DNA of 64,000 nucleotides from Salinisphaera sp. T31B1 (GTDB lineage Bacteria > Pseudomonadota > Gammaproteobacteria > Nevskiales > Salinisphaeraceae): assembly GCF_040361275.1 (NCBI RefSeq), contig NZ_APNH01000001.1, forward strand, positions 682,001-746,000, in the 5' to 3' direction. Each line of letters begins with the position of its first letter. The first letter of the stretch is position 1. Below the pieces are notes generated by a model. It saw nothing but the letters and a program-made list of their open reading frames with translations. It was not told where the DNA came from and ran no database searches. Shown in pieces: positions 35,386 through 61,815 of this stretch. A program made the position numbers and the translations under genes.

Positions 35386-35414
35386 GCACGATAATCCTAG
35401 AAGGGGGTAATACG

Positions 35415-36464: not shown

Positions 36465-36481
36465 TCTTTCCCGGGCCTGAT

Positions 36482-36526
36482 CGGCCGCGCGTCTTGTCGT
36501 CCGCTGGGCGATTGAGCGCGCGGCCG
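36482..36526 (+). terminator. Intercistronic stem-loop between dctP and dctQ
   Basis: CGGCCGCGCG (36482-36491) pairs perfectly over 10 bp with CGCGCGGCCG (36517-36526). There is no U-tract. It would protect or attenuate the transcript so that the binding protein is made in excess of the permease. Confidence 0.5.
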
Positions 36527-36567
36527 GGGCCGCACAAGCGCTTCGTCTGTATTACTTGGAGGCTGCC

Positions 36568-38769: not shown

Positions 38770-40035
38770 ATGACAAGACACCGATGGTACGGGGGCTGGA
38801 GCATCGTCGCGGCGGCCACGCTGCTGACCTTATTGACGGTCGGGATGCGCCTGGGCACCGGCCCGTTCTTCCTGCCGATGGCTGAAGATCTCGGCTTCAG
38901 CCGCAGCCAGCTCGGCTCGATCGTCAGCGTCGGTATGTTTTTCTACGGCTTGGCCATGCCGCTGGCCGGCTGGCTGGTCAGCCGCGTCGGCACGCGGTCG
39001 GTGTTGATCGCCGGTACGGTCATGGTCGCGGTTGCGGTTGCATGGACGGTCATCGCACGTACGCCGATCACGCTATACCTGTCGTTTGGCATCCTTCTTT
39101 CGGTCGGGCTGGGTTTCATCAGTCCGGTTGTGTTGACCCCCGTCATCTGCCGCTGGTTCGCCCGCCAGCGTGGCAAGGCCCTGTTCTTCCTGTCGACCGG
39201 TTCGATGGCCGGCATCGCGGTAATGACGCCGCTGTTCAGCGTCTCCATCGCGGCATTCGGCTGGCAGGCCACATTGATCGGCTTTGCGGCGGTCCTCATG
39301 GGCGTGGCCCTGGTGACTGCTCTCTGGGTGATCCGTGACGAGGTGCCGGCCGAGGCGGTCAACCCGACATATGCGGGTGCGGTGGACCCGAGCGGCAGCG
39401 ATCCGGCGCCGGCGGATGCCCCGTTCGTGGTCGCCGTCATGTCTGCGCCGTTCCTGAAAATATTCCTGGGGCTGTTCGCCTGCGGTTTCAGCATGAACCT
39501 GCTCGGCACCCACGGCGTGCCCATGCTCATGGATCACGGATTCGACTCGACCACGAGCTCGCTGGGTATCGGGCTGATCGGCCTGGTCGCCATACTCGGT
39601 ACGGTGATGATCGGACGGGTGGCCGATCGTGTCCCGCGGCGCAACCTGTTGGCTTTGATCTACGGTGTGCGCGGGCTGGGATTCTTTGCTTTGCTGATGG
39701 TCTACACGCCGCTCGGGCTGTATGCCTCGGCCGCGGTCGGAGGCATGGTCTGGGCCGGCAGCATCGCCACCTCCTCGGCGATGCTGGCCGACGTCTACGG
39801 GGTGCGTATGGTCGGGGTGCTGTACGGCACGGCCTATGTCGGCCATCAGATCGGCGCGACGATCAGTACCTGGCTCGGCGGCTGGGGTTTTCAGCACTTC
39901 GGCACCCATTGGGTTGCCTTCGGCAGTGCCGGCGTGCTGTTGCTGCTGGCCGCAGCGATTTCGCTGCGCCTGCCGGCAGACGGCTTTGTCTTCGGCGCGA
40001 ATGCGCGGGGCGCGGTGAAGCAGTCGAGCACATAG
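38770..40035 (+). CDS. MFS transporter, monocarboxylate/oxalate-formate-like
   Basis: About 421 residues and 12 predicted helices, with the motif A-like GWLVSRVGTRSV after helix 2 and GRVADRVPRRN in the second half. The compact shape and the CRWFARQRGKAL loop resemble the oxalate/formate antiporter and monocarboxylate group. Alternative start ATG 38740 would add 10 residues. Neither start has a strong ribosome binding site. The gene converges on the second citrate synthase. Its substrate may relate to the nearby GntR-controlled carboxylate genes. Confidence 0.82.
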   Translation: MTRHRWYGGWSIVAAATLLTLLTVGMRLGTGPFFLPMAEDLGFSRSQLGSIVSVGMFFYGLAMPLAGWLVSRVGTRSVLIAGTVMVAVAVAWTVIARTPITLYLSFGILLSVGLGFISPVVLTPVICRWFARQRGKALFFLSTGSMAGIAVMTPLFSVSIAAFGWQATLIGFAAVLMGVALVTALWVIRDEVPAEAVNPTYAGAVDPSGSDPAPADAPFVVAVMSAPFLKIFLGLFACGFSMNLLGTHGVPMLMDHGFDSTTSSLGIGLIGLVAILGTVMIGRVADRVPRRNLLALIYGVRGLGFFALLMVYTPLGLYASAAVGGMVWAGSIATSSAMLADVYGVRMVGVLYGTAYVGHQIGATISTWLGGWGFQHFGTHWVAFGSAGVLLLLAAAISLRLPADGFVFGANARGAVKQSST

Positions 40036-40172
40036 CCGGGCCGGCCCGCTCGCCGTACCGCCCGCCGACTGATCGAAGGCGCGAGCGCGGCGCCCAAGCA
40101 GGTCGCACCCAGGAGCGGACTGGGCTCAGTGCGCCAGGCCGCTCGCCCCATCCAGTGTTGCGGCGGCCATCA

Positions 40173-40203
40173 CCGCCTCGCCCCGGCGTGCGGGGCGAGG
40201 CGG
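40173..40203. terminator. Bidirectional stem-loop between MFS gene and second citrate synthase
   Basis: A perfect 12-bp stem CCGCCTCGCCCC (40173-40184) with GGGGCGAGGCGG (40192-40203) and a seven-base loop lies between the two converging genes. Confidence 0.6.
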
Positions 40204-40219
40204 GGCCAGGTCCCGAGCC

Positions 40220-41335
40220 TTATGCGTCAGGAACGGCGCGCGGCGCCGGGCCCACATATTCGGCGCTCGGCCGGATGATGCGATTGTCGGCGCGCTGTTC
40301 GAACACATGCGCGGCCCACCCGGACAACCGGCTCATCACGAAGATCGGCGTGAACAGCTTCGTCGGAATATCCATGAAGTGGTAGGCCGAGGCATGGAAG
40401 AAGTCGGCATTGCAGAACAGCTTCTTTTCACGCCACATCACTTGTTCGCAGCGCACCGAGACCGGGTAGAGCGTCGTGTCGCCGACATCCTCGGCGAGTT
40501 TTTCGGCCCACTGCTTGATGATGCCGTTGCGCGGATCGGACTCGCGATAGATGGCGTGCCCGAACCCCATGATCTTTTCCTTGCGCTCGAGCATGCCGAG
40601 CATCTTGGCCTCGGCATCGTCCGGATCGGTGAACTGCTCGATCATGGCCATGGCGGCTTCGTTGGCGCCGCCGTGCAGGGGACCGCGCAGGGTGCCAATC
40701 GCGCCTGTGATACAGCTGTGGATATCGCTGAGGGTCGAGGCGCACACGCGAGCGTTGAACGTCGAGGCGTTGAATTCGTGCTCCGCATACAGAATCAGCG
40801 ACGTGTTCATGGCCGCGGCGTGCAACGCACTCGCCGGCTTGCCATGCAGCATTTCCAGAAAATGTGCGCCCAGCGAGTCGGCGCTGGTATCGGTATCGAT
40901 CCGTTCACCGTGGTGGCTGAAGCGATACCAGTAACAGATCATGCCCGGGAACAGCGACATCATGCGATCGGTCGCGTCCTGCTGCTGGCTGAAATCCGCC
41001 TCGCCTTCGAGGTTGCCCAGCGTCGAGCAGCCAGTACGCAGCACGTCCATCGGATGGGCGTCGGCCGGAATCCGTTCGAGCACTTCCTTGAGCGTATCCG
41101 GCAGATCGCGCAGGGATTTGAGCTTGGCCTTGTAGTCGACGAGTTCTTCGGCGCTGGGCAGCTCGCCTTTGAGCAGCAGATAGGCCACGGCCTCGAACTC
41201 GCATTTATCGGCGAGCTCCTGGATATCGTAGCCTCGATAGGTCAGGCCGGAGCCGCTCTGGCCGACTGTGGAAAGCGACGTGCGGCCGGCGACCTGGCCT
41301 CGCAGGCCGGCGGTATTGGTCTTGTTTTCGGTCAT
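40220..41335 (-). CDS. 2-methylcitrate synthase-like citrate synthase (second paralogue)
   Basis: A 371-residue enzyme of the short citrate-synthase class with catalytic His221 (LHGGAN), His260 (GFGHAIY) and Asp311 (CNADFF). The residue after the second His is Ala, where the first paralogue (2196-3326) has Arg; PrpC of E. coli has Pro there, so this copy is more PrpC-like. AAGGAG precedes the ATG. It lies 81 bp downstream of a GntR regulator gene on the same strand and opposite a PEP-mutase/isocitrate-lyase family gene, so it probably joins oxaloacetate with propionyl-CoA or another short acyl-CoA in a dedicated pathway. Confidence 0.85.
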
Positions 41336-41416
41336 GACAACTCCTTCACGAGTAGACTGGTTTTCCTGAATCTGTATCCCGACAAGTCGACCGCGCGGCG
41401 GGCCTCCGAGAGGCCT

Positions 41417-42127
41417 TCACCAGTCGGTCGCGGCACTCGGCTGTCGGCATTCGATTTCGATATTCCGGCGGGCACGGCTGATGTGCCGCCGCATGAGCAT
41501 TTCGGCGAACTCTCCATCGCGTGCCTCGAGCGCTTCGACGATTCGGCGGTGCTCGAGCAATGCGGCCTGCGGGCGTTTGGCCACGCTGCTGAATTGATAC
41601 CGCGACATGCGAATCAGGTAGTAGAGCTCGCCGATCAGCGTATCGATCAATGCCGTGTTATGGCTGCCCTGGATGATGCGGTAGTGGAAATCCAGGTCAC
41701 CTTCGCGCTGAAAGTAGGCGATATCTTCCTGCAGATCCTGCTGCTGCTCGTGTCGGGCGAGCAGTTCGTAGAGCCCGCGAATCTCGGTATCGCTCATCGC
41801 CGTTGCGGCCATGCGTGCAGCCATGCCTTCCAGGGCTTCGCGTACATAGTAGAGCTGCGACAGCCGCTCCGGATCGAGCGAGGACACGCGCGTGCCCACG
41901 TGAACCTTTCGTTCCAGCAACTTCCGCGACTCCAGCCGCCGGATCACCTCGCGCATCGGGCCTCGGCTGACCCCGTAGCGCATTGCGAGCTCGGATTCTG
42001 ACAGCCGGGTGCCGGGGGCGATTACCCCGCGCACGATATCGTCCTGCAGCGCAGCCAGGGCACGATCGGCCAGCGTACGCGGCTCAGCGGCGAGCGGCAC
42101 GGCAGATTCGGTATCGGTTGTCGACAA
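41417..42127 (-). CDS. GntR-family regulator, FCD domain
   Basis: About 236 residues: an N-terminal winged helix (LSESELAMRYGVSRGPMREVIRRLE) and a C-terminal all-helical FCD domain with the metal- or ligand-binding His/Asp residues (DLDFHYRI, LEHRRIVEALEARD). FCD regulators commonly sense organic acids. The reading frame begins with TTG at 42127, which lies inside a TTGTCGACAA palindrome; a GTG nine codons later is an alternative start. The gene is transcribed with the downstream citrate synthase and is divergent from the lyase gene, and both promoters are probably under its control. Confidence 0.85.
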   Translation of the reverse strand: MSTTDTESAVPLAAEPRTLADRALAALQDDIVRGVIAPGTRLSESELAMRYGVSRGPMREVIRRLESRKLLERKVHVGTRVSSLDPERLSQLYYVREALEGMAARMAATAMSDTEIRGLYELLARHEQQQDLQEDIAYFQREGDLDFHYRIIQGSHNTALIDTLIGELYYLIRMSRYQFSSVAKRPQAALLEHRRIVEALEARDGEFAEMLMRRHISRARRNIEIECRQPSAATDW

Positions 42128-42190
42128 TGGGTGCGATCAGTTCGTCCTATGATCGCTTTATCTTTACATGATTCCAATATTGTCTACAAT
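42118..42190. promoter_or_regulatory. Two TTGTCnACAA operators between gntR and lyase gene
   Basis: Palindromes TTGTCGACAA (42118-42127) and TTGTCTACAA (42180-42189, extended to ATTGTCTACAAT at 42179-42190) have centres 62 bp apart, about six turns. They flank the divergent promoter region and one covers the regulator's start codon, as expected for autoregulation by the GntR protein. Confidence 0.6.
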
Positions 42191-42314
42191 CGGTGATCTT
42201 ACTAGCGGCTGACGCGGTCGCTACACAGACAGTGCTTGTATCGTGCCGGCTGCCCCGAACATGACGCCGTGCCGGTTACCGGCGCTGACACCGATCTTTT
42301 CGCGAGGACCAGAC

Positions 42315-43193
42315 ATGACCCAATCCGATGCTTCCCGTCGTGCCGCCTTTCGTGCGCGCGTGGCCGAGCGCAAGGCGCCGATCATTGCCGGTGCCTACAA
42401 TGCGCTCAGTGCCCGGATCATCGAGGACACCGGCTTCGAGGCGGTGTATCTGACCGGTGCCGGGGTGACGAATATGGCGTTCGGTCTGCCCGATCTGAGT
42501 TTTGTCAGTCTACGCGACATGGCCGAGCATGCTGCGCGCGTGCGTGAGGCGGTAGAGTTGCCGCTGGTAGTCGACGCCGACACCGGCTTCGGCAATGCGC
42601 TGAACGTGCGTCAGAGCGTGCACACGCTCGAACGCAGCGGTGCCGACGCGATCCAGATGGAAGACCAGATACTGCCCAAGAAATGCGGCCATTTCGAAGG
42701 CAAGCAGGTCATTCCGGCCGGCGAGATGGTCGGCAAGATACGGGCCGCCGTCGATGCACGCCGCGATGAGAACTTCCAGATCATCGCGCGTACCGATGCG
42801 GCAGCCGTTCACGGCATCGAGGATGCGATCGAGCGGGCCCATCGCTATGCCGAGGCGGGGGCCGACGTGCTGTTCATCGAGGCAACCGAAACCCGCGAGG
42901 ACATCGAGCGCCTGCCCGCGCTGTTCGAAATTCCTCTGCTCATCAACGTGGTCATCGGCGGCAAGACGCCGACCCTGTCGCAGACCGAGTTGGCCGGGCT
43001 TGGCTACGGGCTGACCCTGTATGCCAATGCGGCACTCCAGAGTGCGGTATGCGGCATGCAGCGGGCGTTGTCCAAACTCAGTGAAGACGGCCGTCTGGAT
43101 GAGGATCCGACGCTGGTCGCCCCGTTCGCCGAGCGCCAGCGGCTGGTCGACAAGGCGCTCTTCGATCGCCTGTCCAGCGAATACGGCGACTGA
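42315..43193 (+). CDS. Isocitrate lyase/PEP mutase family lyase (2-methylisocitrate lyase-like)
   Basis: A 292-residue TIM-barrel enzyme. Metal-binding Asp residues are in VVDADTGFGN, and the flexible catalytic loop carries KKCGHFEGK with the catalytic Cys. Relatives cleave 2-methylisocitrate (PrpB) or 2,3-dimethylmalate, or decarboxylate oxaloacetate. PrpB usually has KRCGHRPNK, so the GHFEGK variant points to the dimethylmalate-lyase/decarboxylase side. It is divergent from the gntR-citrate synthase operon. Synthase and lyase together would form the ends of a methylcitrate-like cycle, but no dehydratase (PrpD) is present here. ATG 42315 follows GAGGACC. Confidence 0.82.
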   Translation: MTQSDASRRAAFRARVAERKAPIIAGAYNALSARIIEDTGFEAVYLTGAGVTNMAFGLPDLSFVSLRDMAEHAARVREAVELPLVVDADTGFGNALNVRQSVHTLERSGADAIQMEDQILPKKCGHFEGKQVIPAGEMVGKIRAAVDARRDENFQIIARTDAAAVHGIEDAIERAHRYAEAGADVLFIEATETREDIERLPALFEIPLLINVVIGGKTPTLSQTELAGLGYGLTLYANAALQSAVCGMQRALSKLSEDGRLDEDPTLVAPFAERQRLVDKALFDRLSSEYGD

Positions 43194-43990
43194 ACCGGCG
43201 GCGCCGGAGCGGCAAAAGCCGCCGTCCGGCTGATCGAGCCGGCGTGGATCAACCACGTGTCGCGATCGGCTGGCCGTGCGCAGTGGTGTGCGCATGCCTG
43301 ACCGAGCCGAGGGGCGCGTAAATCCGGGGCCCACGAGCTTGGCTCGGGGCCGGGGCGAGGCATGACGCCGATCGCGTGTGAACGGACTCTTGCCTGCCGC
43401 GATGCGCCCGAATAGCACCCGTCCAGCCGATCCGAGCCTGTACGCCGGCTGCGACGTCCCTATCGTTCACGGTCGTGGTCCCGGCAGCGGTGCGGTCGGA
43501 TGATTCGCGTGCCGCCGCCGGAGCCTTCGGCCGCTTGTCTCGAAACCATGTAAACAGAATGGTTGCTCGCGAGGGCCTGTCACCGCGGTGGCAGGCGGGT
43601 GTGTTCGGCCCCCGTCGTCGGGAACAGGATTTTCGTGCTCGAATCGACGGCGCCAACGCGGCCGGCGTCGCTGCGGTCCCGACATCATGCGAACAGCGCC
43701 GTACGGGTCGGCGAGATGCCCATACCGCCCGTGGTCAGCGGCGATCAGGCGCCCGCCAGTCGATACTCGCCGGCGCACTCTGAACGGGTCGCGTGGACGG
43801 CTCGGGTACGGCCAGTCAAAGCCGTGAATCATCTCCTTGAAAAAGGTTGACGGCTCAAGCGGCGCGTGCGTATCTTAATTCAGGACGTTATTCCATAATT
43901 AAGAACATGCGTCGACGATATGAGCGATGATCAGGCCACGGTCGGCGCTGCACAACGCCCGTCTCGGCGAGCCAAGAGGAGGTATCTCGC
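43194..43990. other. About 800-bp gene-free region before the CoA-transferase
   Basis: No credible gene is seen. A GC-rich stem-loop (GCCGGAGCGGC, AAAA loop, GCCGCCGTCCGGC, 43208-43235 approximately) follows the lyase gene. The right end becomes AT-rich and contains an inverted repeat CTTAATT/AATTAAG at 43874-43880 and 43897-43903, probably the control site of the CoA-transferase operon. Confidence 0.55.
43874..43903. promoter_or_regulatory. Inverted repeat upstream of the CoA-transferase operon
   Basis: Perfect seven-base arms CTTAATT and AATTAAG, 16 bp apart, lie 88 bp before the GTG start in an otherwise GC-rich context. They are a candidate operator overlapping the promoter. Confidence 0.45.
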
Positions 43991-45205
43991 GTGGTGGATA
44001 GAGGTTTGCTGGACGGCCTGCGCGTGGTCGAATTCGGTCAGATCGCGGCCGGCCCATTTGCCGGCTCCCTGTTGGCCGATCTGGGCGCGGATGTGGTCAA
44101 GATCGAACGGGCCGACGGCGGGGACGGCATGCGTGCCTGGCCGCCGCTGACGGAAAACGATGCGGGCGATGCGTTCAGCGAGAACTTCGCTTCGCTGAAC
44201 CGAAACAAGCGCAGTGTTGCGCTGGATCTCAAGAGTGAAGCCGGACAAGCCCATGCCCGTAGCCTGTGCGAGCGGGCCGACGTGGTGCTGGAGAATTATC
44301 GCCCGGGCGTGATGGAACGACTGGGCTTGGGCCACGAGACGTTGGCCGAACTCAACCCGCGCCTGGTTTTCTGCTCGATCAGCGGCTACGGACAACGCGG
44401 GCCGTCGGCGGGTAAAGGCGCGTTCGACGTCACGGTCCAGGCGATGAGCGGGATCATGAGCGTTACCGGCGAACCCGACAGCGGACCGGTCAAGTGCGGC
44501 GTGCCGGTCGGCGATTTCTGTGCCGGTCTGTATGCCGGATATACGATCCTTGCCGCGCTTCGCCGCCGTGAACAGAGCGGCGAAGGTGCGTTCATCGATT
44601 GTTCCATGGTCGGCAGTCTGCTCGGGATTTCGGCGCTGCAGACCAGCGAGTTCTTCGGCACCGGACAACCCGCGCAGCGGCTCGGCTCGGCGCATCCGCG
44701 AAATGCGCCTTACCAGGCATTCCGTGCCCGGGATACGCACTTCGTGGTCGCTGCCGGTAACGACAAGCTGTGGCGCTCGGTATGTCAAATCGTCGAACGT
44801 CCGGCCCTGGCCGAGGACGCTCGTTTCGAGACCCAGGCGCTGCGCGCAGCCAACCAGGAAACTCTGGCGGCCGAACTTCAGCCTGTGTTCGAAACCCGCA
44901 ATGCCGCCCACTGGCTGAGCGAACTCGAGGCCGAGGGCGTGCCGTGCAGCCCGATCAACAGCTTTCGGGAAGTCTTCGATGATGCGCATGTTCAGAGTAT
45001 GGGCATCGTGCGTGATCTGACACTGCCCAACGGCGCGCGCACCCATACCACCGGTTTCCCTATCGCCATATCGGGCTTCGACTTCGATATCGCCCGGCAA
45101 CCGCCCAAGCTCGGTGAGCATAACGATGAGGTGCTCGCCGAATGGAGCGGCGCGTCGTCTGTGAACGGTGAGCGGCAGGCCTCGGGTACGGGTGGGGCCG
45201 GTTGA
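43991..45205 (+). CDS. Family III (CaiB/BaiF) CoA-transferase
   Basis: A 404-residue cytosolic enzyme that moves CoA between carboxylic acids through an aspartyl-CoA thioester. It has the N-terminal GLRVVEFGQIAAGPFAGSLL, LADLGADVVKIE and DLKSEAG segments, the nucleophile Asp146 in GKGAFDVTVQ and the typical C-terminal GVPCSPINSF. GTG at 43991 has GAGGAGG eight bases upstream. The stop codon overlaps the next gene's ATG (TGATG). Relatives act on carnitine, formate/oxalate, succinate, itaconate, mesaconate or 3-sulfinopropionate; the neighbouring lyase genes suggest a hydroxylated or sulfonated C3-C5 acid. Confidence 0.9.
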   Translation: MVDRGLLDGLRVVEFGQIAAGPFAGSLLADLGADVVKIERADGGDGMRAWPPLTENDAGDAFSENFASLNRNKRSVALDLKSEAGQAHARSLCERADVVLENYRPGVMERLGLGHETLAELNPRLVFCSISGYGQRGPSAGKGAFDVTVQAMSGIMSVTGEPDSGPVKCGVPVGDFCAGLYAGYTILAALRRREQSGEGAFIDCSMVGSLLGISALQTSEFFGTGQPAQRLGSAHPRNAPYQAFRARDTHFVVAAGNDKLWRSVCQIVERPALAEDARFETQALRAANQETLAAELQPVFETRNAAHWLSELEAEGVPCSPINSFREVFDDAHVQSMGIVRDLTLPNGARTHTTGFPIAISGFDFDIARQPPKLGEHNDEVLAEWSGASSVNGERQASGTGGAG

Positions 45206-45507
45206 TGGCGCGGTCAGCGGCCGAGGAGCCGACCGCCCGGGCGCTCATGTTGCATGACGGCGACGATGTGGCCGTGGTCATCGCGCCTGTGTCGGCCGGC
45301 ACGCTTTGCGAGATCACCACTCCTTCCGGCAAGCAGTCGGTGCGGGCCGCGGGGGATATCGCCTTCGGGCACAAGATGTCGGTCCGTGCAATCGGCGTCG
45401 GCGAGACGGTCATCAAGTACGGCCACCCCATCGGTCGCGCCGCGGCGGCGATCGAGTGCGGAGCGCATGTTCATGTTCACAATCTTCAGGGTGGCGTGTC
45501 GGCCTGA
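45205..45507 (+). CDS. UxaA/SuyA-type small lyase subunit (SAF domain)
   Basis: A 100-residue SAF-domain protein, the small subunit of two-part hydro-lyases or sulfo-lyases such as altronate dehydratase (N-terminal part) and sulfolactate sulfo-lyase SuyAB. Typical features are VAVVIAPVSAGT at the start, GDIAFGHKMSVRAI, VIKYGHPIGRA and the terminal GAHVHVHNLQGG. The ATG overlaps the CoA-transferase stop by one base. It is followed by the large subunit after 30 bp. Whether it works on a sugar acid or on sulfolactate cannot be decided by inspection. Confidence 0.85.
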   Translation: MARSAAEEPTARALMLHDGDDVAVVIAPVSAGTLCEITTPSGKQSVRAAGDIAFGHKMSVRAIGVGETVIKYGHPIGRAAAAIECGAHVHVHNLQGGVSA

Positions 45508-45537
45508 CATGGCGCCTTGGCGAGCTGGAGAAACGTC

Positions 45538-46743
45538 GTGAATCAGGTGTTCTACGGTTTTCCCCGGCCGGTCGGCCGAGCGGGCATTCGCAACAAGATA
45601 CTGCTGCTGCCGATCGACCGCTATTCGAACGAGGCGGCCTGGCAGATCGATCAAACGGTCGCGGGCCTGACCCGGTTTACCTGTCCGGGCGATATGGGGC
45701 GACATGCGGGCGACCGCGAGCGGCTGTTCAGCATCATGCGGGGTGTGGCCGCCAATCCCAACGTGGCGGGTGTGGTGCTGATTTCGGTCAACCGCGAATT
45801 CAACTATCCCGAAACTCGGGCGCAGCGTCTGCTGGATGCGCTGGCCGCATTGGAGAAACCGGTCGTGCCGCTGTTCATGTCCGAACTGGGCGGCGCGGCC
45901 CGGACGGTAGTCGAGGGACAGATCGCGGCGCGCAACCTGCTACGCGAGATCGGTCGGCAACAGCGTTGCCCCGTGCCGCTGGGTGAGCTGTCGATCGGAA
46001 TCAAGTGCGGCACATCCGACGGCACGTCCGGTATCAGTGGCAACCCGGCGCTGGGCGCTGCCATGGATCGTCTGGTCGCGGCGAACGGCACCGTGATCTT
46101 CTCGGAGACGACCGAGATCATCGGCGCCGAGCAGGTGCTGGCCGAGCGGGCGGCCGATGCGCAGACCGCCGAGCGAATCGTTTGCATGGCCCGGCGTGTC
46201 GAACGCCAGGCCCGCGATCTCGGCGAGGATATCCGCACCATCAACCCGATCCCCTCGAACATCAAGGCCGGCATTTCCACGCTCGAGGAGAAGTCGCTCG
46301 GTGCGATCGCCAAGGGGGGCACGACACCGCTGTGCGGCGCGCTCGACTATGCTCAGGCGCCCGACCGCCGTGGCCTGTTCTTCATGGACGGCTGGATGGC
46401 CTCGAATTCGCTGCCGATATCGCTGGCCGCGGCCGGTGCCCAGATCACCGTGCTGCAGAGCGGCGGCTCGGACCTGCCCGATGACCCGCCGCTGGCTGCA
46501 ACCAACCCAGGCTTGGTCGCGCCCAACTTTTATATGTCGGGCAACCCGGAGCTGGTGGCCAAGATGCGGGTGGGGCTGGACTTCGATTCATCGGCGGTAC
46601 TGGTCGGCGATGAGTCGCTCGCCGACATTGGCGCCCGGATCCTGCAAGCGCTTTCGGAGATCGCCTCAGGCCAGCCGACCTACGGCGAGACGCTCAAGTA
46701 TTCGGAAGTTCAGGAAATCTGGTTCGACGGGCCGGTCTTCTAG
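45538..46743 (+). CDS. UxaA/SuyB-type large lyase subunit
   Basis: Large subunit of 401 residues from the altronate/galactarate dehydratase and sulfolactate sulfo-lyase family, Fe2+-dependent in known members. Landmarks are the GRAGIRNKIL opening, LSIGIKCGTSDGTSGISGNP with a conserved Cys, SETTEIIGAEQVL, NPIPSNIKAGIS and KGGTTPLCGALDYA. GTG 45538 has GGAG eight bases upstream; an in-frame ATG at 45517 adds seven residues. If it is SuyB it would split (R)-sulfolactate into pyruvate and sulfite, fitting the HpsN-like and SoxCD genes in the same window. If not, it dehydrates a sugar acid together with the enolase-superfamily enzyme downstream. Confidence 0.82.
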   Translation: MNQVFYGFPRPVGRAGIRNKILLLPIDRYSNEAAWQIDQTVAGLTRFTCPGDMGRHAGDRERLFSIMRGVAANPNVAGVVLISVNREFNYPETRAQRLLDALAALEKPVVPLFMSELGGAARTVVEGQIAARNLLREIGRQQRCPVPLGELSIGIKCGTSDGTSGISGNPALGAAMDRLVAANGTVIFSETTEIIGAEQVLAERAADAQTAERIVCMARRVERQARDLGEDIRTINPIPSNIKAGISTLEEKSLGAIAKGGTTPLCGALDYAQAPDRRGLFFMDGWMASNSLPISLAAAGAQITVLQSGGSDLPDDPPLAATNPGLVAPNFYMSGNPELVAKMRVGLDFDSSAVLVGDESLADIGARILQALSEIASGQPTYGETLKYSEVQEIWFDGPVF

Positions 46744-46835
46744 AAGCACGGTGGCCCCGGCCGCGTTCCTGTGGACAACACGCACGGCGCATCCGGCCAG
46801 TCCCGGTGTCGAAAAATCAAAACGGAGGATGAGCA

Positions 46836-48035
46836 ATGAAGATCACCGATCTGGAAATTCTGGAGTGCGACGCAGGCTGGCGTAACTACTCTTTCGTCAA
46901 GATCAGCACCGACGAGGGGCTGGTCGGCTGGAGCGAGTTCAACGAAGGCTTCGGCTCGCCCGGCATCGGGACGGTCATACAGCAGCTGGCGGGCACGCTC
47001 ATCGGCCAGCCGTTGCCCGGTCTCAACCGGTTCTTTGCCGATGTCTATGCCCGTACCCGTCCGGCGGCCGGCGGCGTCGTGGCCGAGGGGATCGCGGCGA
47101 TCGAGAACGCCCTGCTGGATCTGCACGCAAAGCGGCTGAACGTGCCTTGCTATGAATTGCTGGGCGGCAAGGTACGGGATCGCTTGCGGGTGTACTGGTC
47201 GCACTGCCCGGCCTGGCGAATCAATCACCCGAGTTACTACGGGCCGCAGATCAGCGACCTGGACGGTGTCCGGGCGATCGGCGGGGAGGCACGTGAACGC
47301 GGTTTCGATGCGCTCAAGACGAATCTGTTCCTGTTCGAGCAGGGCAGCGCACGCGCATGGCGCCCGGGTTTCTCCGCGCCGTTCTACCCGGAGCTGAATA
47401 TCGATCGCACCGTCATCCGCAACATGCTCGACACCATCGAAGCGCTGCGGGCCGGTGCCGGTGCGGACATGGACATCCTCATCGATGTCAATTTCCACGC
47501 CAAGACCGACGGCTATCTGAAGCTGCTGCGGGCGTTGTCGGATGTCGATCTGTTCTGGGTCGAACTGGACACCTATCGTCCTGAAGCGCTTGCCCATATA
47601 CGACGCCAGGCGGGCCAGACCATCAGTTCGTGTGAAACCTTGTGTGGCGGACGCGAATTCCTGCCGTTCTTCCAGCAACAGGCGGTGGATGTGGCCATCG
47701 TCGACGTCATCTGGAACGGCGCCTGGCAGTCGATGAAGATCGCCGATCTGGCCGATGTGCACGAAGTCAATATCGCGCCCCACAACTTCTATGGCCATCT
47801 GGCCACGATGATGAGCGCACACGTGGCCTGTGCAGTGCCCAATTTCTGCATCATGGAAACCGATATCGATCGGCTGGAGTGGGATGCGGAGATCTTCACC
47901 CATGTGCCCGAATATCGAGACGGTCATCTCGTCATGCCCGATCGGCCGGGCTGGGGCACGGAACCGGTCGAAAGCGAGATTCGGGCCCGGCCACCCAAGC
48001 GTGGCGGCGGGCTCATGCAGCCACGCAAGAGCTGA
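46836..48035 (+). CDS. Mandelate racemase/muconate lactonising enzyme family protein (acid-sugar dehydratase-like)
   Basis: A 399-residue enolase-superfamily enzyme. Mg2+ ligands are visible as Asp217 (IDVNF), Glu243 (WVELDTY) and Glu267 (CETLCG). Lys161 in KTNLF and His316 in APHNFYGH, with an Asp in VDVIWN, give the Lys and Asp-His bases of the mandelate racemase subgroup. Such enzymes remove a proton alpha to a carboxylate and usually dehydrate or epimerise sugar acids. GGAGG precedes the ATG. It is the last gene of the CoA-transferase unit and is followed by a strong stem-loop. The substrate is unknown. Confidence 0.87.
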   Translation: MKITDLEILECDAGWRNYSFVKISTDEGLVGWSEFNEGFGSPGIGTVIQQLAGTLIGQPLPGLNRFFADVYARTRPAAGGVVAEGIAAIENALLDLHAKRLNVPCYELLGGKVRDRLRVYWSHCPAWRINHPSYYGPQISDLDGVRAIGGEARERGFDALKTNLFLFEQGSARAWRPGFSAPFYPELNIDRTVIRNMLDTIEALRAGAGADMDILIDVNFHAKTDGYLKLLRALSDVDLFWVELDTYRPEALAHIRRQAGQTISSCETLCGGREFLPFFQQQAVDVAIVDVIWNGAWQSMKIADLADVHEVNIAPHNFYGHLATMMSAHVACAVPNFCIMETDIDRLEWDAEIFTHVPEYRDGHLVMPDRPGWGTEPVESEIRARPPKRGGGLMQPRKS

Positions 48036-48056
48036 CGAACGCCCGCCCAATGGGAC

Positions 48057-48091
48057 CCGGCGGCCCGGGGGTGACCCGGCCGGGCCGCCGG
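48057..48091 (+). terminator. Stem-loop after the CoA-transferase/lyase operon
   Basis: A perfect 12-bp GC stem CCGGCGGCCCGG (48057-48068) and CCGGGCCGCCGG (48080-48091) with an 11-base loop, 21 bp after the stop codon. No U-tract follows. Confidence 0.6.
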
Positions 48092-48467
48092 ATGTCCGGT
48101 TCGGTTAGCGGCTCACTACCAGTGGCCGGATCGCGGCTCGCAAAGCGACGTGGCTATCGGCGTCGTGCCTCGCCGGCTGAAGTGCAATGAATTCATACGT
48201 TGGTATTACAAGCCGCGCGGCCGGGAGCCGATCGGCACGGCGGCAAGTGATCGAAAAATAAATAAATATCTGATTAATATAAAAAATATTAGTCGTGTGC
48301 CCGCGCGTCGACGGCTTGGGCCGGGTTTCAAATTGTCTTGACAGTGGTATTCGCAAGGCGCTAGTGTCGTTTCGTAATGTATTAAGACGTTCTGAATAGC
48401 AGAATAAACAATCGCCGAGGCATCGTGACTCGTACGGCCCGCCCCGCGATTACACATGGAGGAGAGC
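48092..48467. promoter_or_regulatory. AT-rich regulatory region before the acyl-CoA synthetase operon
   Basis: No gene is seen. A block of about 45 bp at 48248-48293 is almost pure A+T and contains TAATAT/ATATTA arms, in sharp contrast to the GC-rich surroundings, as for IHF/H-NS or UP-element sites. A TTGACA lies at 48340-48345, but the hexamer 17 bp downstream (CTAGTG) is a poor -10, so the promoter may need an activator. Confidence 0.5.
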
Positions 48468-50594
48468 ATGAGTCAGGCATTGGCGATCGGTCAGGAGAGC
48501 TCCGCGGTTCATGCCGCCTTCGAGCCGCGCAGCATCGCGGTCGTGGGTGCGTCGGAGGATATGGGCAAGTTCGGCGGTCGTATCCTCCACTACCTCCTGC
48601 ATCACCGGTTTGCCGGCCAGATCTTTCCTGTCAACGCCACGCGCGACCAAGTCTGCGGGCTCGATGCCTATGCGTCGCTGGACGACCTCCCGAGCACCCC
48701 GGATCTGGTCGTCATCTGCGTGCCGCAGCGGCATGTGCACGGCGTCGTCGAATCAGCCGGGCGGCTGGGTGTCGGCGTGGCCGTGGTGGTCTCCAACGGT
48801 TTTGCCGATGCGGGCGATGAAGGTCGGCAACAGGAACAGGTGCTCGTAGCCCTGGCGCAACGCCATGGCCTCCGCTTGGTCGGGCCCAACTGTATGGGCT
48901 TCGTGTCCGCGGCGACCGGCGTCATCGTCTGTTCGTCGAATATCCTGGCCATCGACAGCGTGCCGACCGGCGGCGTCGGGTTCATCAGCCAGAGCGGCGC
49001 CGTGCTCATGGCGCTGATGGACTGCGGTTTTCGTCAGGGGATCGGCTTTTCCCACTGCGTCACGCTGGGCAACCAGGCCGATCTGGAGCTGTGTGACTTC
49101 GTCGAGTATCTGCTCGAGGACGACGCCACGCAGGTCATCTGCACCTATGTCGAAGGCTTGAAAGACGCGGAGCGCTTCCAGCGCCTGGCGCGTCGCGCTG
49201 CCGCCCAGAACAAGCCCTGGATCATGCTCAAGTCCGGCCGCACGGCGGCCGGCGCCGAAGCGGCCTATTCGCATACCGCGAGTCTGGCGGGCAGCTATCA
49301 GGCCTTCGAGACCGTCTGCCGCGAGAACGGCATCATTCTGGTCGAGGATGTCGAATCGCTGCTGTGTCTGGCGGCGATCCTGGAGAAGTTTCCCGGTCAG
49401 CGTCTGGACCGCGTGGCGCTGTCGTCGACTTCGGGGGGCAGCCTGGCGTTGTGTGCCGATCGGCTGTCCGATGAAGGCATCAAACTGGCCGAACTGTCGA
49501 GCGAAACACTCGACAAACTGCACGAGCACTATCCGGCGTCGGTTTCCAACCCCGTCGATATCGGTGTCGCCACGCAGGGTGCGCTGGGCCGGGTCGCACG
49601 GCCGACCGCCGAGATCCTGCTATCAGACCCGGGCGTGGATATCTTCCTGCCGGTACTGAGTACCGCACCGGACGTGCACGCGCTGACGCAGTGGTATATC
49701 GAAGGCGCCGAAGCCGCAGGCGACAAGCCGTATCTGGTGGTCTTGCAGCCGGCGGCTCTGGCCGACAGCACGCGTCTGGAGCTTCGCCGCCGAGGCATTG
49801 CCTTTGTCGATAGCTTCGACGCCCTGGCCCGTGCGCTCAGAGCCTGGAAACAGACGATGGCGGCGCCCCGCAAGCCCGCAGACTGCGAGCGTCCGGCGGG
49901 GCTGCCCGCACCGGGTACGATCGCCGCACCTTCCGGAGCGATGGACGAGACCCAGGCGAAGACGCTGCTGGATCGCTATGGCATCCGGACCAATCTGGGG
50001 GTGACCTGTACGACTCCCGAACAGGCAGGCGAGGCGGCCGCGAACATGCAATTCCCGGTGGTCGTGAAGATCGTATCGCCGGACATCGTGCACAAAAGCG
50101 ATATGGGCGGCGTAGCGCTCAATCTCGATAGCGTAGAGGCCGTCGAGCAGGCAGCCCGCGACATGGCCGCTCGCATCACCGCCGCCGACTCCAGTCTTCG
50201 ACTGGAAGGGTTTTCCGTGCAGGAGCAGGCCACCGGAAAGATGGAACTCGTGCTCGGTGTGAACACCGACGAACAGTTCGGTCCGATGATCGTGTTCGGC
50301 GCCGGCGGCACGCTGGTCGAGATTCTCTCCGACGTGGCGGTGGCCAGTGCGCCGGTCGCCCGTGCCACCGCGCGTGCCCTGCTCGAGCGGCTGCGTATTT
50401 ACAAGGTGCTGGCCGGCGCGCGTGGCAATGCGCCACTGGATATCGACGCGGTGGCTGAACAGATCGAGCGGCTGAGTTGGTTGGCCGAGGATTTCAAGGA
50501 CTCGTTGCAGGAACTGGATATCAACCCGTTGCTGGTCGACGACGAGGGGCGCGGCGCCGTGGCAGTGGATGCCCGGGCGCTGTTCAAGAAATAG
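48468..50594 (+). CDS. Acyl-CoA synthetase, NDP-forming
   Basis: A 708-residue fusion of the alpha (CoA-binding, ligase) and beta (ATP-grasp) parts of ADP-forming acyl-CoA synthetases. The N-terminal CoA-binding Rossmann domain starts RSIAVVGASEDMGKFGGRIL; the phospho-His is His269 in YSHTASLAGS; the ATP-grasp part includes VVKIVSPDIVHKSDMGG and DINPLLVDDEG. It would reversibly activate a carboxylic acid, conserving energy as ATP when run backward. GGAGG lies just before the ATG at 48468; an ATG 12 bp upstream is less well placed. It heads the unit that continues with the TctCBA importer. Confidence 0.9.
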   Translation: MSQALAIGQESSAVHAAFEPRSIAVVGASEDMGKFGGRILHYLLHHRFAGQIFPVNATRDQVCGLDAYASLDDLPSTPDLVVICVPQRHVHGVVESAGRLGVGVAVVVSNGFADAGDEGRQQEQVLVALAQRHGLRLVGPNCMGFVSAATGVIVCSSNILAIDSVPTGGVGFISQSGAVLMALMDCGFRQGIGFSHCVTLGNQADLELCDFVEYLLEDDATQVICTYVEGLKDAERFQRLARRAAAQNKPWIMLKSGRTAAGAEAAYSHTASLAGSYQAFETVCRENGIILVEDVESLLCLAAILEKFPGQRLDRVALSSTSGGSLALCADRLSDEGIKLAELSSETLDKLHEHYPASVSNPVDIGVATQGALGRVARPTAEILLSDPGVDIFLPVLSTAPDVHALTQWYIEGAEAAGDKPYLVVLQPAALADSTRLELRRRGIAFVDSFDALARALRAWKQTMAAPRKPADCERPAGLPAPGTIAAPSGAMDETQAKTLLDRYGIRTNLGVTCTTPEQAGEAAANMQFPVVVKIVSPDIVHKSDMGGVALNLDSVEAVEQAARDMAARITAADSSLRLEGFSVQEQATGKMELVLGVNTDEQFGPMIVFGAGGTLVEILSDVAVASAPVARATARALLERLRIYKVLAGARGNAPLDIDAVAEQIERLSWLAEDFKDSLQELDINPLLVDDEGRGAVAVDARALFKK

Positions 50595-50653
50595 TCAGCT
50601 GCCCTCGGGGACCGGGCTGACCACTATAAAAACGTGTGCAGAGGAGCATCGAC

Positions 50654-51628
50654 ATGACTGACAAAAAGACCAGAAAGGCGGCTAGAAAACTGCTCGCCGC
50701 CGGTTTGGCGGTAGCGGGCCTGATCGTCCAGACCACCGTGCTGGCCGCAACGTTTCCGGATCGGCCGGTGCGCCTGATCGTGCCGTATCCGCCGGGTGGA
50801 ACCAGCGATAACGTAGCGCGTTCGATCCAGCAGCCGCTGGAGAAAGCGCTTGGCCAGACGGTGATCATTGAAAACGTGTCGGGTAGTGCCGGCACTGTCG
50901 GTACGGCCGCTCTGGCTGATGCCAAGCCCGACGGCTATACGGTCGGCATCAATGCCAGCGCGACAATCACTACATCGCCGCATCTCACGCCCGTGAACTA
51001 CGATCTCGATTCGTTCGCGCCGGTGGCACGGGTCGCGATCTCGTATCTGGGCATTGCCGTACGCCCGGATTTCCCGGCCTCCAACTTCAAGGAGTTCGTC
51101 GAGTATGCAAAGACGCATCGGGTGACGGTGAGCAACACCGGCATCGGTGCGACGACCCATCTGTGTGTGGAAGCGCTCAAGAAGGAGACGGGCACGCAGC
51201 TGGTTCAGGTGCCCTTCAAAGGCTCGAGTCCATCGATGAACGCGGTTATCAACGGCCATATCGATGCCGTGTGCGATCCCGCGCTGATCAACCCCATGCA
51301 GAGCGGCATCCTCAAGCCTATCGTCACCCTGACGCCCGAGCGCTGGAAGGAAATCCCCGATACGCCGACCTACAAGGAAGCCACTGGCAAGGCGTTTCCG
51401 GTGACCAACTGGTACGTGGCGCTGGCACCGGCCGGCACCCCGGATGATCGTCTCCAGATACTGACCGATGCCTTCAAGCAGGCGCTGGATGATCCCGATC
51501 TGGCCAAACGCTTCGCGTCGATGGGCATCCAGCCCTATTTCTCGCCCTCTGCCGAAGTCGAGAAAGAACTCCACGAAGAGTTCGACACGCGCGGCGACAC
51601 GCTCAAGGACCTGGGTCTGACGCAGTAA
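50654..51628 (+). CDS. tctC: Tripartite tricarboxylate transporter substrate-binding protein (Bug family)
   Basis: Periplasmic receptor of 324 residues. The signal peptide (LLAAGLAVAGLIVQTTVLAA) is followed by FPDRPVRLIVPYPPGGTSDN, the typical Bug opening, and VPFKGSSPSMNAVINGHID later on. Ligands of this family are carboxylates bound by main-chain contacts, such as citrate, malate, nicotinate and terephthalate. AGAGGAG precedes the ATG at 50654. A perfect stem-loop separates it from tctB. Confidence 0.93.
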   Translation: MTDKKTRKAARKLLAAGLAVAGLIVQTTVLAATFPDRPVRLIVPYPPGGTSDNVARSIQQPLEKALGQTVIIENVSGSAGTVGTAALADAKPDGYTVGINASATITTSPHLTPVNYDLDSFAPVARVAISYLGIAVRPDFPASNFKEFVEYAKTHRVTVSNTGIGATTHLCVEALKKETGTQLVQVPFKGSSPSMNAVINGHIDAVCDPALINPMQSGILKPIVTLTPERWKEIPDTPTYKEATGKAFPVTNWYVALAPAGTPDDRLQILTDAFKQALDDPDLAKRFASMGIQPYFSPSAEVEKELHEEFDTRGDTLKDLGLTQ

Positions 51629-51639
51629 CGCAGTCGACG

Positions 51640-51671
51640 GCCGCCAACCATCGATCGGGGTGGTTGGCGGC
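51640..51671 (+). terminator. Intercistronic stem-loop between tctC and tctB
   Basis: GCCGCCAACCA (51640-51650) pairs perfectly over 11 bp with TGGTTGGCGGC (51661-51671) around a 10-base loop. There is no U-tract. It is likely to set the binding-protein to permease ratio. Confidence 0.6.
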
Positions 51672-51719
51672 GGTTGCCGCTACGTCCTTGCCTGTTTCCA
51701 GCTGACCGAGGCCGGTGTC

Positions 51720-52202
51720 ATGACGATCCGAAAGCTACATATCAGTGCCGGGTTATGGGGGGCCGTGATCGGCCTGCTGCTGATTTTCTGGCTGATACCC
51801 GAGTACATCAGTGTGCCGCCGGCTGCCAAGTTCACGCCGGGGCCGACGCCCCGCACCTTCCCGACGATTCTCGCGTGGGCGCTGGTCGTATCCGGGATCG
51901 GGTCGATGATCATTGACATGCTTGCACGGCCGGTGGCCCAGACCGCGCCCGCCTACCGGCTCGACTGGAAGACAGCGCTGCTGATCGCCGGGCTGATCGC
52001 GCTGTACGTGCTGTTGTTTCACTGGGCCGGCTTTACTGTGACGACCGTGATCGTGCTGTTCGGTTTTCTCTGGTTGCTGTCGCCGCTTGGCGTATTGCCG
52101 GCAGCCGGCGTCTCGGTGGCGGTGACGCTGATCATCGTTGCCCTGTTTTCCACGCTCCTGCAGATACCGCTGCCGGAGAGCTTTCCGGCACTGGGTCTTT
52201 AA
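51720..52202 (+). CDS. tctB: Tripartite tricarboxylate transporter small permease
   Basis: A 160-residue membrane protein with four predicted helices, the TctB pattern, including the amphipathic segment around FTPGPTPRTFPTILA after helix 1. The ATG at 51720 is chosen; upstream in-frame codons lie in the stem-loop. TctA follows after 42 bp. Confidence 0.88.
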   Translation: MTIRKLHISAGLWGAVIGLLLIFWLIPEYISVPPAAKFTPGPTPRTFPTILAWALVVSGIGSMIIDMLARPVAQTAPAYRLDWKTALLIAGLIALYVLLFHWAGFTVTTVIVLFGFLWLLSPLGVLPAAGVSVAVTLIIVALFSTLLQIPLPESFPALGL

Positions 52203-52244
52203 CAGCGAGCTGCGGACGGTTCGCATCATTCGCGGTATACGCAT

Positions 52245-53786
52245 ATGAACTACATGCCGGAAATCATCGGTTACTTCACGGACTGGCATCTGCTGGTGTT
52301 CCTGCCGCTGGGTGTGCTGATCGGAATCGTGGTGGGCGCCATTCCGGGCCTGACCGCGACGATGACGATCGGCCTGCTGCTGCCGTTCACGTTCACGCTC
52401 ACGCCGTTGCCCGCCTTCATCCTGCTCATCGGCATCTTCAAAGGGGCGATGTTCGGTGGCTCGATCGCGGCGATTCTGCTGGGTTGCCCGGGCACGCCGG
52501 CGGCTGCCTGTACCATGCTCGAAGGCGTGCCGATGGCGCGCAACGGCCGCGCGAGTGCCGCACTCGATGCGGCGTTGTGGTCGTCCTTTCTCGGCGATCT
52601 GATGTCCACGGTCGCGCTGCTGTTCGCTGCCACCTATATCGCACGGGTCGCCGGTGTCCTCGGGCCGCCGGAATTCTTCGCACTCATGCTGCTCGCACTC
52701 ACGATCATCGCCGCCATCTCGGCCGAAGGCGTGGTCAAGGGCATCATTGCCGGTTGTCTGGGACTGCTTGCCGGCACCGTAGGATTGGATCTGGTGTATG
52801 GCAGCGCGCGTCTGACGTTCGGCCAGCCCGAGCTGAATCAGGGCCTGGCGTTCATCCCCATTCTGGTGGGGCTGTTCGCGCTACCCGATATTTTTCTGCA
52901 CTATTTCAAGACCGACAAGGCCGTTGACGATTCCAGCCGTGTCGCCGCGATGACCGACGACGGCATGAGAAAGGGCGAACTGAGGATGATCGCGCCCACC
53001 ATCGGCCGCAGCGGGCTGCTGGGCATGGTGCTCGGCGCCGTGCCAGGCGTGGGGGCGACGATCAGCACCTTCATGGCCTACGGCATCTCCCGCAACTATG
53101 CGCCGGACCGGGCGGAGTACGGCAAAGGCGCAATTTCGGGCGTCGCGGCCGCGGAGTCGGCCAACAGTGCCAACGGCGGCGCCACGCTCATTCCCCTGCT
53201 CACCCTGGGCGTGCCCGGCGATATCGTGACCGCAGTGTTGCTGGGCGCATTCCAGTATCACGGCCTGGCGCCCGGTCCGCTGCTGTTCAAAAGCCACATG
53301 GGGCTGGTATATGCGCTGCTGATCGCGGTGCTGATCTCCAGTTTCCTGGTCTTCGTCGTGGGCAAGCTAACCTACCGGCGGATCGCGTTGATCGCCGGTA
53401 TCCGGGCCGAGTATCTCTATCCGGTGATCATCGTGCTGGCGATCGTCGGCTCGTATGCGCTGTCCAACACGATGTACAACGTGTACGTGCTGATCGGTGC
53501 CGGCGTGCTGGGGCTGCTGTTCCGGCGCCTGCGGATTCCGGCCCCGGCGTTTCTCATCGGCTTCGTGCTCTCGCCGCTGATCGAAGACAACCTTCGCCGA
53601 ACGCTGTTGATATCCGGCGGCGACGTATCGGCGCTGTATGCCAGCCCGACGAGCATCGTCATGTATGCGCTGACCGCGATCATCGTGGTCGTGACGATCG
53701 TCCGCCGCATCCGTTATGTACGCAGCGCCGGGGCTGATGCGCCGGAGGAATACGTGGCCCCGGAATTGTCGGAATCGGTGAAATAG
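52245..53786 (+). CDS. tctA: Tripartite tricarboxylate transporter large permease
   Basis: A 513-residue permease with about 12 hydrophobic segments. Family motifs are GAIPGLTATMTIGLLLPFTF, YGGSIAAILL-like FGGSIAAILLGCPGTPAA, and their inverted-repeat counterpart GAVPGVGATISTFMAYG with SANSANGGATLIPLLTLGVPG. It imports the carboxylate handed over by TctC, driven by an ion gradient. The hydratase-2 homologue follows after 39 bp. Confidence 0.94.
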   Translation: MNYMPEIIGYFTDWHLLVFLPLGVLIGIVVGAIPGLTATMTIGLLLPFTFTLTPLPAFILLIGIFKGAMFGGSIAAILLGCPGTPAAACTMLEGVPMARNGRASAALDAALWSSFLGDLMSTVALLFAATYIARVAGVLGPPEFFALMLLALTIIAAISAEGVVKGIIAGCLGLLAGTVGLDLVYGSARLTFGQPELNQGLAFIPILVGLFALPDIFLHYFKTDKAVDDSSRVAAMTDDGMRKGELRMIAPTIGRSGLLGMVLGAVPGVGATISTFMAYGISRNYAPDRAEYGKGAISGVAAAESANSANGGATLIPLLTLGVPGDIVTAVLLGAFQYHGLAPGPLLFKSHMGLVYALLIAVLISSFLVFVVGKLTYRRIALIAGIRAEYLYPVIIVLAIVGSYALSNTMYNVYVLIGAGVLGLLFRRLRIPAPAFLIGFVLSPLIEDNLRRTLLISGGDVSALYASPTSIVMYALTAIIVVVTIVRRIRYVRSAGADAPEEYVAPELSESVK

Positions 53787-53825
53787 CATGCGCTCCGAAC
53801 AGATCGATCCCATCGAGATACAGTC

Positions 53826-54716: not shown

Positions 54717-54781
54717 GCGCCGCGTGTTGGTACGACTCGAACCATTGATTTGTTAACCCATTCATAACAGGAGACTCGAAC

Positions 54782-55528: not shown

Positions 55529-55643
55529 GGCGCATCGAGGTTCCGTGCGGGCCCGGCGCCGGCCGAGCCCGTCGTGACGAGGGCTCGCACGACTTCGTAA
55601 TGCCCCGGCAGACAGGACATGCCAACTTTTCAAGGAAACGACC

Positions 55644-56237: not shown

Positions 56238-56287
56238 CGGCCGGCCCCCGCCGGATTCGACGTTTTTTCAACTATCGAGTACTGCCT

Positions 56288-56887: not shown

Positions 56888-56911
56888 CGCCGGCAGGACG
56901 GTTTGCGCTAG

Positions 56912-56945: not shown

Positions 56946-56971
56946 TGCGCGACCCGGCCTCGGTCAGCCGG

Positions 56972-59600: not shown

Positions 59601-59607
59601 CGGTTGA

Positions 59608-61811: not shown

Positions 61812-61815
61812 TGCG

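Follow-up and report, generated by a model that had tools for sequence, protein, structure and literature searches.

What could bring a family III CoA-transferase, a UxaA-type lyase and an enolase-superfamily enzyme together in one operon? The three are encoded at positions 43991-48035 of a 64,000-nucleotide (nt) stretch of Salinisphaera sp. T31B1 (contig NZ_APNH01000001.1, positions 682,001 to 746,000), hereafter the window, whose coordinates are used throughout unless another locus is named. From the gene content and order described here we infer, tentatively, that these genes stand at the start of a roughly 13-kb cluster for the breakdown of a sulfur-containing carboxylic acid, with import by a tripartite tricarboxylate (TTT) system, activation to a CoA ester, loss of a thiol by beta-elimination, oxidation by a 3-mercaptopropionate-dioxygenase-like protein (MDO) and disposal of propionyl-CoA. 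The likeliest substrate would be a thioether or mercapto acid from which 3-mercaptopropionate or a closely related compound is formed.

Gene order and layout of the run

The listing of open reading frames (ORFs) contains four frames without stops at these positions, coding for three functions, and the Pfam domains confirm that the three families are adjacent, as the initial annotation had it. The stop codon of the CoA-transferase gene (TGA, 45203-45205) and the start codon of the SAF gene (ATG, 45205-45207) overlap by one base in the motif TGATG, followed by gaps of 9 nt between the SAF and UxaA-C genes and 92 nt between the UxaA-C and enolase genes. Judged by sequence comparison, the genes are real, chance frames being excluded by the 63-64% identity of the enolase to a crystallised protein of Paraburkholderia xenovorans LB400. 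The plus-strand run does not end at 48035, since after a gap of 420 nt further genes follow up to 56887, so that the whole run spans 43991-56887:

43991-45205, plus strand: family III (CaiB/BaiF) CoA-transferase (Pfam CoA_transf_3, 428 bits)
45205-45507, plus strand: SAF subunit, SuyA/UxaA-N like, start ATG at 45205 (Pfam SAF, 21.8 bits)
45517-46743, plus strand: diverged UxaA/GarD-C large subunit whose substrate loops are remodelled (Pfam, 212.7 bits; tree; alignment)
46836-48035, plus strand: enolase-superfamily (MR/MLE) enzyme of the LB400 2oo6/3go2 clade (619.7 bits to 2oo6)
48456-50594, plus strand: ADP-forming acyl-CoA synthetase, 712 amino acids (450.8 bits, cut-off 1200; Pfam)
50636-51628, plus strand: TctC of the TTT uptake system (Pfam TctC, 199 bits)
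51660-52202, plus strand: TctB of the TTT system (Pfam, 56.6 bits)
52245-53786, plus strand: TctA of the TTT system (Pfam, 437.5 bits)
53826-54716, plus strand: two-domain MaoC-type hydratase, MFE-2 hydratase-2-like (Pfam; best solved relative 3khp)
54782-55528, plus strand: crotonase-fold protein with the second catalytic Glu only (sequence alignment)
55644-56237, plus strand: glutathione S-transferase (GST)-like protein
56285-56887, plus strand: MDO of the cysteine dioxygenase family (first Met near 56285 in ORF 56183-56887)
56972-57763, minus strand: IclR-type regulator, convergent to the run (Pfam IclR_C, 172.5 bits)

A promoter scan of 43100-57900 returned a single weak match (43847-43876), with 2.8 expected by chance, and Rfam at gathering scores gave no match in 40000-58500. 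The ADP-forming synthetase is probably the CoA-activating enzyme that takes the place of the AMP-forming ligase found in related loci.

The CoA_transf_3 domain covers the CoA-transferase in full (residues 7-378 of 404), and the nearest scored NCBIfam families are succinyl-CoA-dependent, with glutarate and mesaconate enzymes at 353.8 of 750 and 310.8 of 700, below their equivalog cut-offs. Relatives at 1e-90 were found in 48 plasmid records, and in all four that were looked at (55-63% identity) a crotonase lies close by. Two of these plasmids also have an annotated Rieske oxygenase and one a luciferase-type monooxygenase; in one, the CoA-transferase is near a cysteine-dioxygenase-family gene, an LLM-class oxidoreductase and aliphatic-sulfonate transport (ssu) genes.

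The enolase clade and its partners in other bacteria

The closest solved relative of the window enolase is the LB400 protein (PDB 2oo6, 3go2, 3sn0, 3sn1, 3sn4), at 619.7 bits and 64% identity. Both Pfam domains, MR_MLE_N and MR_MLE_C, are present, and nine positions (K161, N163, D217, N219, E243, E267, D290, H316 and E341) are invariant in all 80 aligned enolases, the window's included. We take these to be the putative active site, with catalytic roles assumed from the superfamily. Sharing more than 60% identity and all nine positions, the window enolase is, on alignment, a member of the uncharacterised clade of LB400 2oo6/3go2. A structure model built from 19 relatives (predicted local distance difference test, pLDDT, 87) matched four LB400 entries at Z 57-59, with the next entries at Z 45 or less; four LB400 entries in the PDB still carry the title 'putative L-alanine-DL-glutamate epimerase'. 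At 1e-90, neither the 85 genomes of the order nor the 369 of the class, each set including the window's own, yielded a further carrier of this enolase.

A scan of named genomes gave 435 enolase relatives; the analysis used the 80 best loci, with flanks of up to 10 kb, many contigs being shorter. Partners were counted within 7 kb of the enolase at identity limits that we chose, and the query proteins for the AMP-forming CoA ligase, the acrylyl-CoA reductase AcuI, the CMD/AhpD-like protein and the 2-hydroxyacid dehydrogenase were drawn from two of the 80 loci (L009 and L017). A crotonase of the window type (59-66% identity) stands beside the enolase in 15/80 loci, the CoA ligase in 14/80, AcuI in 13/80, MDO in 11/80 and the CMD/AhpD-like protein in 11/80. 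IclR genes with 44-47% identity to that of the window occur in 8/80, the 2-hydroxyacid dehydrogenase in 4/80 and a citrate synthase in 1/80, while a PrpB-like protein was found in 0/80 within the stretches covered. The AcuI of L009 scores above its equivalog cut-off (495.2 versus 440), and a more distant TctC, confirmed by Pfam in L009, adjoins the enolase within this group. Genera with module partners include Advenella, Bordetella, Achromobacter, Herminiimonas, Paraburkholderia and Methylobacterium.

A second count covered the 268 genomes of the family of the Bordetella ansorpii genome G452. Thirty of them have the enolase at a threshold of E<=1e-100, and 163 have an MDO homologue at E<=1e-25. 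Seventeen genomes have an enolase of the 61-73% clade, and in 14 of these the MDO gene lies 1.6 to 4.8 kb away. As a control, 13 genomes have only enolase paralogues of 42-57% identity, and no link to MDO was seen in 12 of them: the listed MDO is on another contig in ten, 166 kb off in G664 and missing in G580, while in the thirteenth genome, G723, its place falls outside the matches listed. The neighbours linked to the enolase clade in other bacteria thus comprise a thiol dioxygenase of the MDO type, a crotonase, a CoA ligase and acrylyl-CoA reductase. With such companions, the suggestion in the initial annotation that the enzyme first epimerises the substrate of the lyase finds no support. 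A clade with five PDB entries thereby gains a concrete and testable context of organosulfur acids and thiol dioxygenase. Separately, an Agrobacterium plasmid (L007 4337-11670) carries a 56% relative of the enolase near a PatB C-S lyase, a D-cysteine desulfhydrase-family gene, OsmC and a 2-hydroxyacid dehydrogenase, which is sulfur company once more.

The window MDO aligns over nearly its full length with 4qma, 3uss/4tlf, 4wvz and 6xb9 (E 1e-65 to 1e-70). Two of these, the 3uss/4tlf sequence and 4wvz, are named 3-mercaptopropionate dioxygenase. The HDH pair (HxH), third His and Gln of the window MDO, the roles of which we presume from general knowledge of these enzymes, line up with the solved dioxygenases. 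The protein can therefore be put forward as the putative 3-mercaptopropionate dioxygenase expected in a cluster for 3-mercaptopropionate or dithiodipropionate (DTDP). In the crotonase, alignment with hydratases places T or V at the first catalytic Glu and retains the second in 16/16 proteins (the window and 15 loci). To our knowledge, crotonases with a single Glu are not ordinary hydratases, so this protein could plausibly catalyse an isomerisation or eliminate a good leaving group, for instance a thiolate. A different arrangement is seen in Advenella kashmirensis (L170 1519-8900), where an MDO match is accompanied by relatives of TctC and TctA, a MmgE/PrpD protein, an adenylosuccinate-lyase-family lyase and an IclR 50% identical to that of the window; the lyase is perhaps another type that feeds MDO.

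The split SAF/UxaA pair, the flanking genes and the proposed route

The Pfam SAF match in the small subunit is weak (21.8 bits against a cut-off of 21), and the large subunit carries GD_AH_second and GD_AH_C, so that the pair forms a split UxaA-family enzyme with the layout of SuyAB. Against NCBIfam, both proteins score far below the sugar-acid equivalog cut-offs (galactarate dehydratase 136.6 of 730.85 bits). A tree of 50 sequences sets the UxaA protein apart from E. coli UxaA and GarD and places it in a group of 22 rows (support 99/95) with 16 SuyB-type rows and five others. It is not itself among the 16 SuyB-type rows, which it joins at 89/63; its branch, 2.55 long, was flagged as unsure by the program. 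The SuyB rows include a Cupriavidus pinatubonensis pair from the same locus as hpsN and hpsO, as well as a row from Sinorhizobium mexicanum, for which a section of PMC12421959 reports SuyB homologues. Based on the tree, the window pair appears nearer to the sulfolactate lyase SuyB than to UxaA/GarD, on a long branch. Of the two identities offered in the initial annotation, the SuyAB-like one accordingly gains from the tree, and that of a sugar-acid dehydratase loses.

The UxaA protein keeps 35/42 family-conserved columns and has extra residues in two loops, and only 81/181 SuyB-invariant columns are common to it. Taken together with the seven family columns that are lost (G59D, G251A, F313L, T315S, G318S, G322D and K339Y), this points to a diverged family member with a probably altered substrate. 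A model of the protein, built without an alignment, reached a pLDDT of 32 and was not used. The genome has a second split pair (L137 7129-8582; large subunit G000:C1:419161-420288), which belongs to the SuyB clade, is 33% identical to that of the window and has genes for a TauE exporter and for an NMT1-type ABC system in its neighbourhood; its large subunit is 70% identical to that of the C. pinatubonensis hpsNO cluster. A scan of genome contigs with the window UxaA protein found no relative; relatives reach up to 36% in the order and, at E<=1e-58, 40% in the 268 genomes of the other family.

Upstream of the run lie three further genes:

40220-41335, minus strand: 2-methylcitrate/citrate synthase of the PrpC type (635.8, over the cut-off of 550)
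41417-42127, minus strand: GntR/FCD regulator, divergent from the PrpB-like gene (profile matches)
42243-43193, plus strand: PrpB-like protein of the isocitrate-lyase/phosphoenolpyruvate-mutase family (274.5 of 354.4)

The PrpC-type and PrpB-like genes offer a possible route of propionyl-CoA disposal. About 11 kb upstream of the CoA-transferase, a SoxC-type sulfite dehydrogenase (651.5 over 420) is followed by a cytochrome c (30908-32942, plus strand), and the SoxC-type enzyme fits the disposal of sulfite. A HisD-family dehydrogenase with 38% identity to C. pinatubonensis HpsN, encoded with a DctP-DctQ-DctM TRAP transporter (33958-38321, plus strand) and a divergent helix-turn-helix-cupin regulator (33152-33781), may form a separate sulfonate or hydroxy-acid module. 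Near the start of the window (916-3326, plus strand), an AcuI/YhdH-family reductase exceeds the family cut-off (397.6 over 297), stays below that for AcuI (337.7 of 440) and adjoins a second citrate synthase. Beyond the IclR gene, the region 58056-63078 encodes a second TRAP transporter (DctQ, DctM), a GntR regulator and an enoyl-CoA hydratase; its AMP-ligase comes close to malonyl-CoA synthase, with 533 of 558 bits.

In the route that we favour, the acid would be taken up by the TTT system and converted to its CoA ester by the CoA-transferase, the ADP-forming synthetase or both. The crotonase, which lacks the water-activating Glu and keeps the proton-abstracting one, would then release a thiol by beta-elimination; MDO would oxidise the thiol to a sulfinate, and the C3 remainder would pass through propionyl-CoA into the methylcitrate route, for which the PrpC-type and PrpB-like genes next door are candidates. 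Enzymes of the enolase and UxaA families remove the alpha proton of a carboxylate substrate and eliminate a group from its beta position. We therefore propose that the enolase and the SAF/UxaA pair are lyases for the hydroxy- or sulfo-acid portion of the compound, perhaps C-S beta-lyases, and the UxaA pair may replace a missing desulfinase step. A bolder form, in which the enolase clade is a new beta-lyase for thioether or mercapto hydroxy-acids that passes the thiol to MDO, with the UxaA pair as a second, unrelated C-S lyase in the same pathway, is in our view a long shot. Should the organosulfur reading hold, C-S substrates would be added to the known chemistry of two large lyase families, together with a route for organic sulfur that proceeds without the known desulfinase.

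Several observations weigh against the favoured route. The gap of 420 nt at 48035-48456 divides the run, and the PrpB-like protein falls below its cut-off. Within the stretches covered, SAF, UxaA-C, MaoC, GST-like and TctC proteins of 40% identity or more occur in 0/80 enolase loci, the CoA-transferase (50% or more) in 3/80 and the ADP-forming synthetase in 1/80 (L045, 42%). Because the UxaA pair is absent from these loci and other window genes are rare in them, 43991-46743 may be in the service of another pathway; the same absence accords with the remark in the initial annotation that its author knew of no described pathway with all three enzymes, and none turned up in the open-licence literature. 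The window, in turn, carries only part of the module: relatives of the crotonase and MDO lie in the run and one of the IclR after it, and the same queries find no CMD match, an AMP-ligase at best 31% identical (59564-58071, minus strand), an AcuI match only at 1096-2133 (45%, about 45 kb from the enolase and below the AcuI cut-off) and a 2-hydroxyacid dehydrogenase of only 33% (7798-8625, about 38 kb away). The window enolase has H at position 221, where 77/80 sequences have N and 3/80 share the H variant, and the seven lost columns of the UxaA protein belong here as well.

The linkage of enolase and MDO has its own exceptions. MDO lies 931 kb from the enolase in G450; in G492 the copy among the matches listed is 841 kb away and a second falls outside them, as does the place of MDO in G512; and in G571 a second enolase (61%) has the MDO of its contig 114 kb off. 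The paralogue control is weak, as the two genes are on different draft contigs in ten of the 12 genomes. The naive chance of 14 linked genomes, about 1e-33, overstates independence because the genomes are relatives, and more weight therefore falls on the fact that the two genes also occur together in Methylobacterium (L065, L076), in Herminiimonas (L028) and in the window itself. Further points come from L172, a locus with the layout of the Advenella DTDP cluster discussed below. Its acyl-CoA dehydrogenase (L172:6844-8046) matches 5af7, which we take to be the Advenella desulfinase, over 1-401 with 891 bits; the same query finds no close relative of this desulfinase, AcdA, in the genome of the window, the best match being 35% (192 bits). 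The CoA-transferase of the window is only 38-39% identical to that of L172.

Four other explanations compete with the route via a thiol. A sugar-acid pathway, in which the enolase acts as an epimerase or dehydratase, the UxaA pair removes water from an aldonate, aldarate or tartrate and the CoA-transferase activates a product, would suit two families rich in sugar-acid dehydratases; the best NCBIfam names are galactarate and galactonate dehydratase, and the nearest folds beyond the LB400 entries include mannonate dehydratases. However, the scores are far under the cut-offs, at 136.6 of 730.85 for the UxaA pair and, for the enolase, 133.1 of 311 bits (galactonate dehydratase) and 106 of 550 (mannonate dehydratase), the UxaA protein lies away from E. 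coli UxaA and GarD, and no aldolase, sugar kinase or sugar transporter is among the families assigned in 43991-56887. As the partners of the enolase moreover belong to CoA and organosulfur (thiol) chemistry, we consider this pathway unlikely, and the sugar-acid reading was rejected on the profile cut-offs and the tree. A pathway for carboxylates of the 3-hydroxypropionate or acrylate type, with MDO and the enolase as passengers or acting on a sulfur-free substrate, draws on the fact that AcuI, the ligase, the crotonase and the methylcitrate genes serve C3 acids whether or not these contain sulfur. It is likewise improbable given that MDO is linked in 14/17 genomes and in separate lineages, that it closely matches thiol dioxygenases and that the crotonase lacks the water-handling Glu.

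More doubtful is a second sulfolactate lyase (SuyAB) that releases pyruvate and sulfite, the latter being oxidised by the SoxC-type enzyme at 30.9 kb. The split layout, the tree clade shared with SuyB and the SoxC, HisD-family and TRAP genes upstream in the window are all as this explanation would have them, but a SuyB-clade pair already exists elsewhere in the genome, near TauE, and the residues differ, with 81/181 SuyB-invariant columns in common, so that a plain SuyAB is disfavoured. Nor is a SlcC- or ComC-type dehydrogenase found among the genes of 43991-56887, and the HisD-family protein is only 38% identical to HpsN. The least probable of the four divides the run into neighbouring operons, 43991-48035 serving an unrelated acid and only 48456-56887 forming an organosulfur or acyl-CoA unit. 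The 420-nt gap and the position of the UxaA pair outside the module elsewhere speak for such a division; the enolase, however, sits in the first block, and its usual partners (crotonase, MDO and IclR) are in or after the second.

Comparison with known pathways

The nearest described systems serve DTDP and thiodipropionate (TDP). For Advenella mimigardefordensis DPN7, the pertinent sections of PMC5373536 list a DTDP cluster with prpB, prpF, acnD, prpC, xre, lysR and a family III CoA-transferase, together with the desulfinase Acd, Mdo, an AhpD-like protein and two TctC genes. For Variovorax paradoxus TBEA6, the pertinent sections of PMC6370202 assign Mdo, Act, AcdA and two enoyl-CoA hydratases to TDP and give beta-elimination of its CoA ester as one proposed route, and a passage of PMC8102459 states that TDP uptake needs a TctC. 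The word 'mandelate' is absent from the main texts of PMC5373536 and PMC6370202. In G514, the genome of the DTDP-type locus L172, an enolase lies 3.9 kb from a second MDO. Since a close AcdA relative is missing from the genome, the exact known DTDP pathway was rejected for the window.

The LB400 protein has 64% identity and all nine checked active-site columns in common with the window enolase and differs by the N221H exchange of the latter; its locus (L045) contains a crotonase, AcuI, an AMP-ligase and a 2-hydroxyacid dehydrogenase, with no MDO match in the stretch covered. SuyAB, the (R)-sulfolactate sulfo-lyase, shares the split SAF and large-subunit layout and the side of the family tree with the window pair, which is set apart by 33% identity to the genome's own SuyB-clade protein, insertions in two loops and K339Y. 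With the galactarate and altronate dehydratases GarD and UxaA, the window pair has the family fold and 35/42 conserved columns in common, whereas the E. coli proteins are fused and lie on the other side of the tree, and the score of the window pair is far below the cut-off. Judging by the sections cited, the window and the DTDP (Advenella) and TDP (TBEA6) clusters have MDO, a family III CoA-transferase and TTT receptors in common, with 2-methylcitrate synthase shared in addition with Advenella and enoyl-CoA hydratases with TBEA6. In contrast to both, the window has no close AcdA and adds the enolase, the SAF/UxaA pair, the ADP-forming synthetase and the MaoC-type hydratase.

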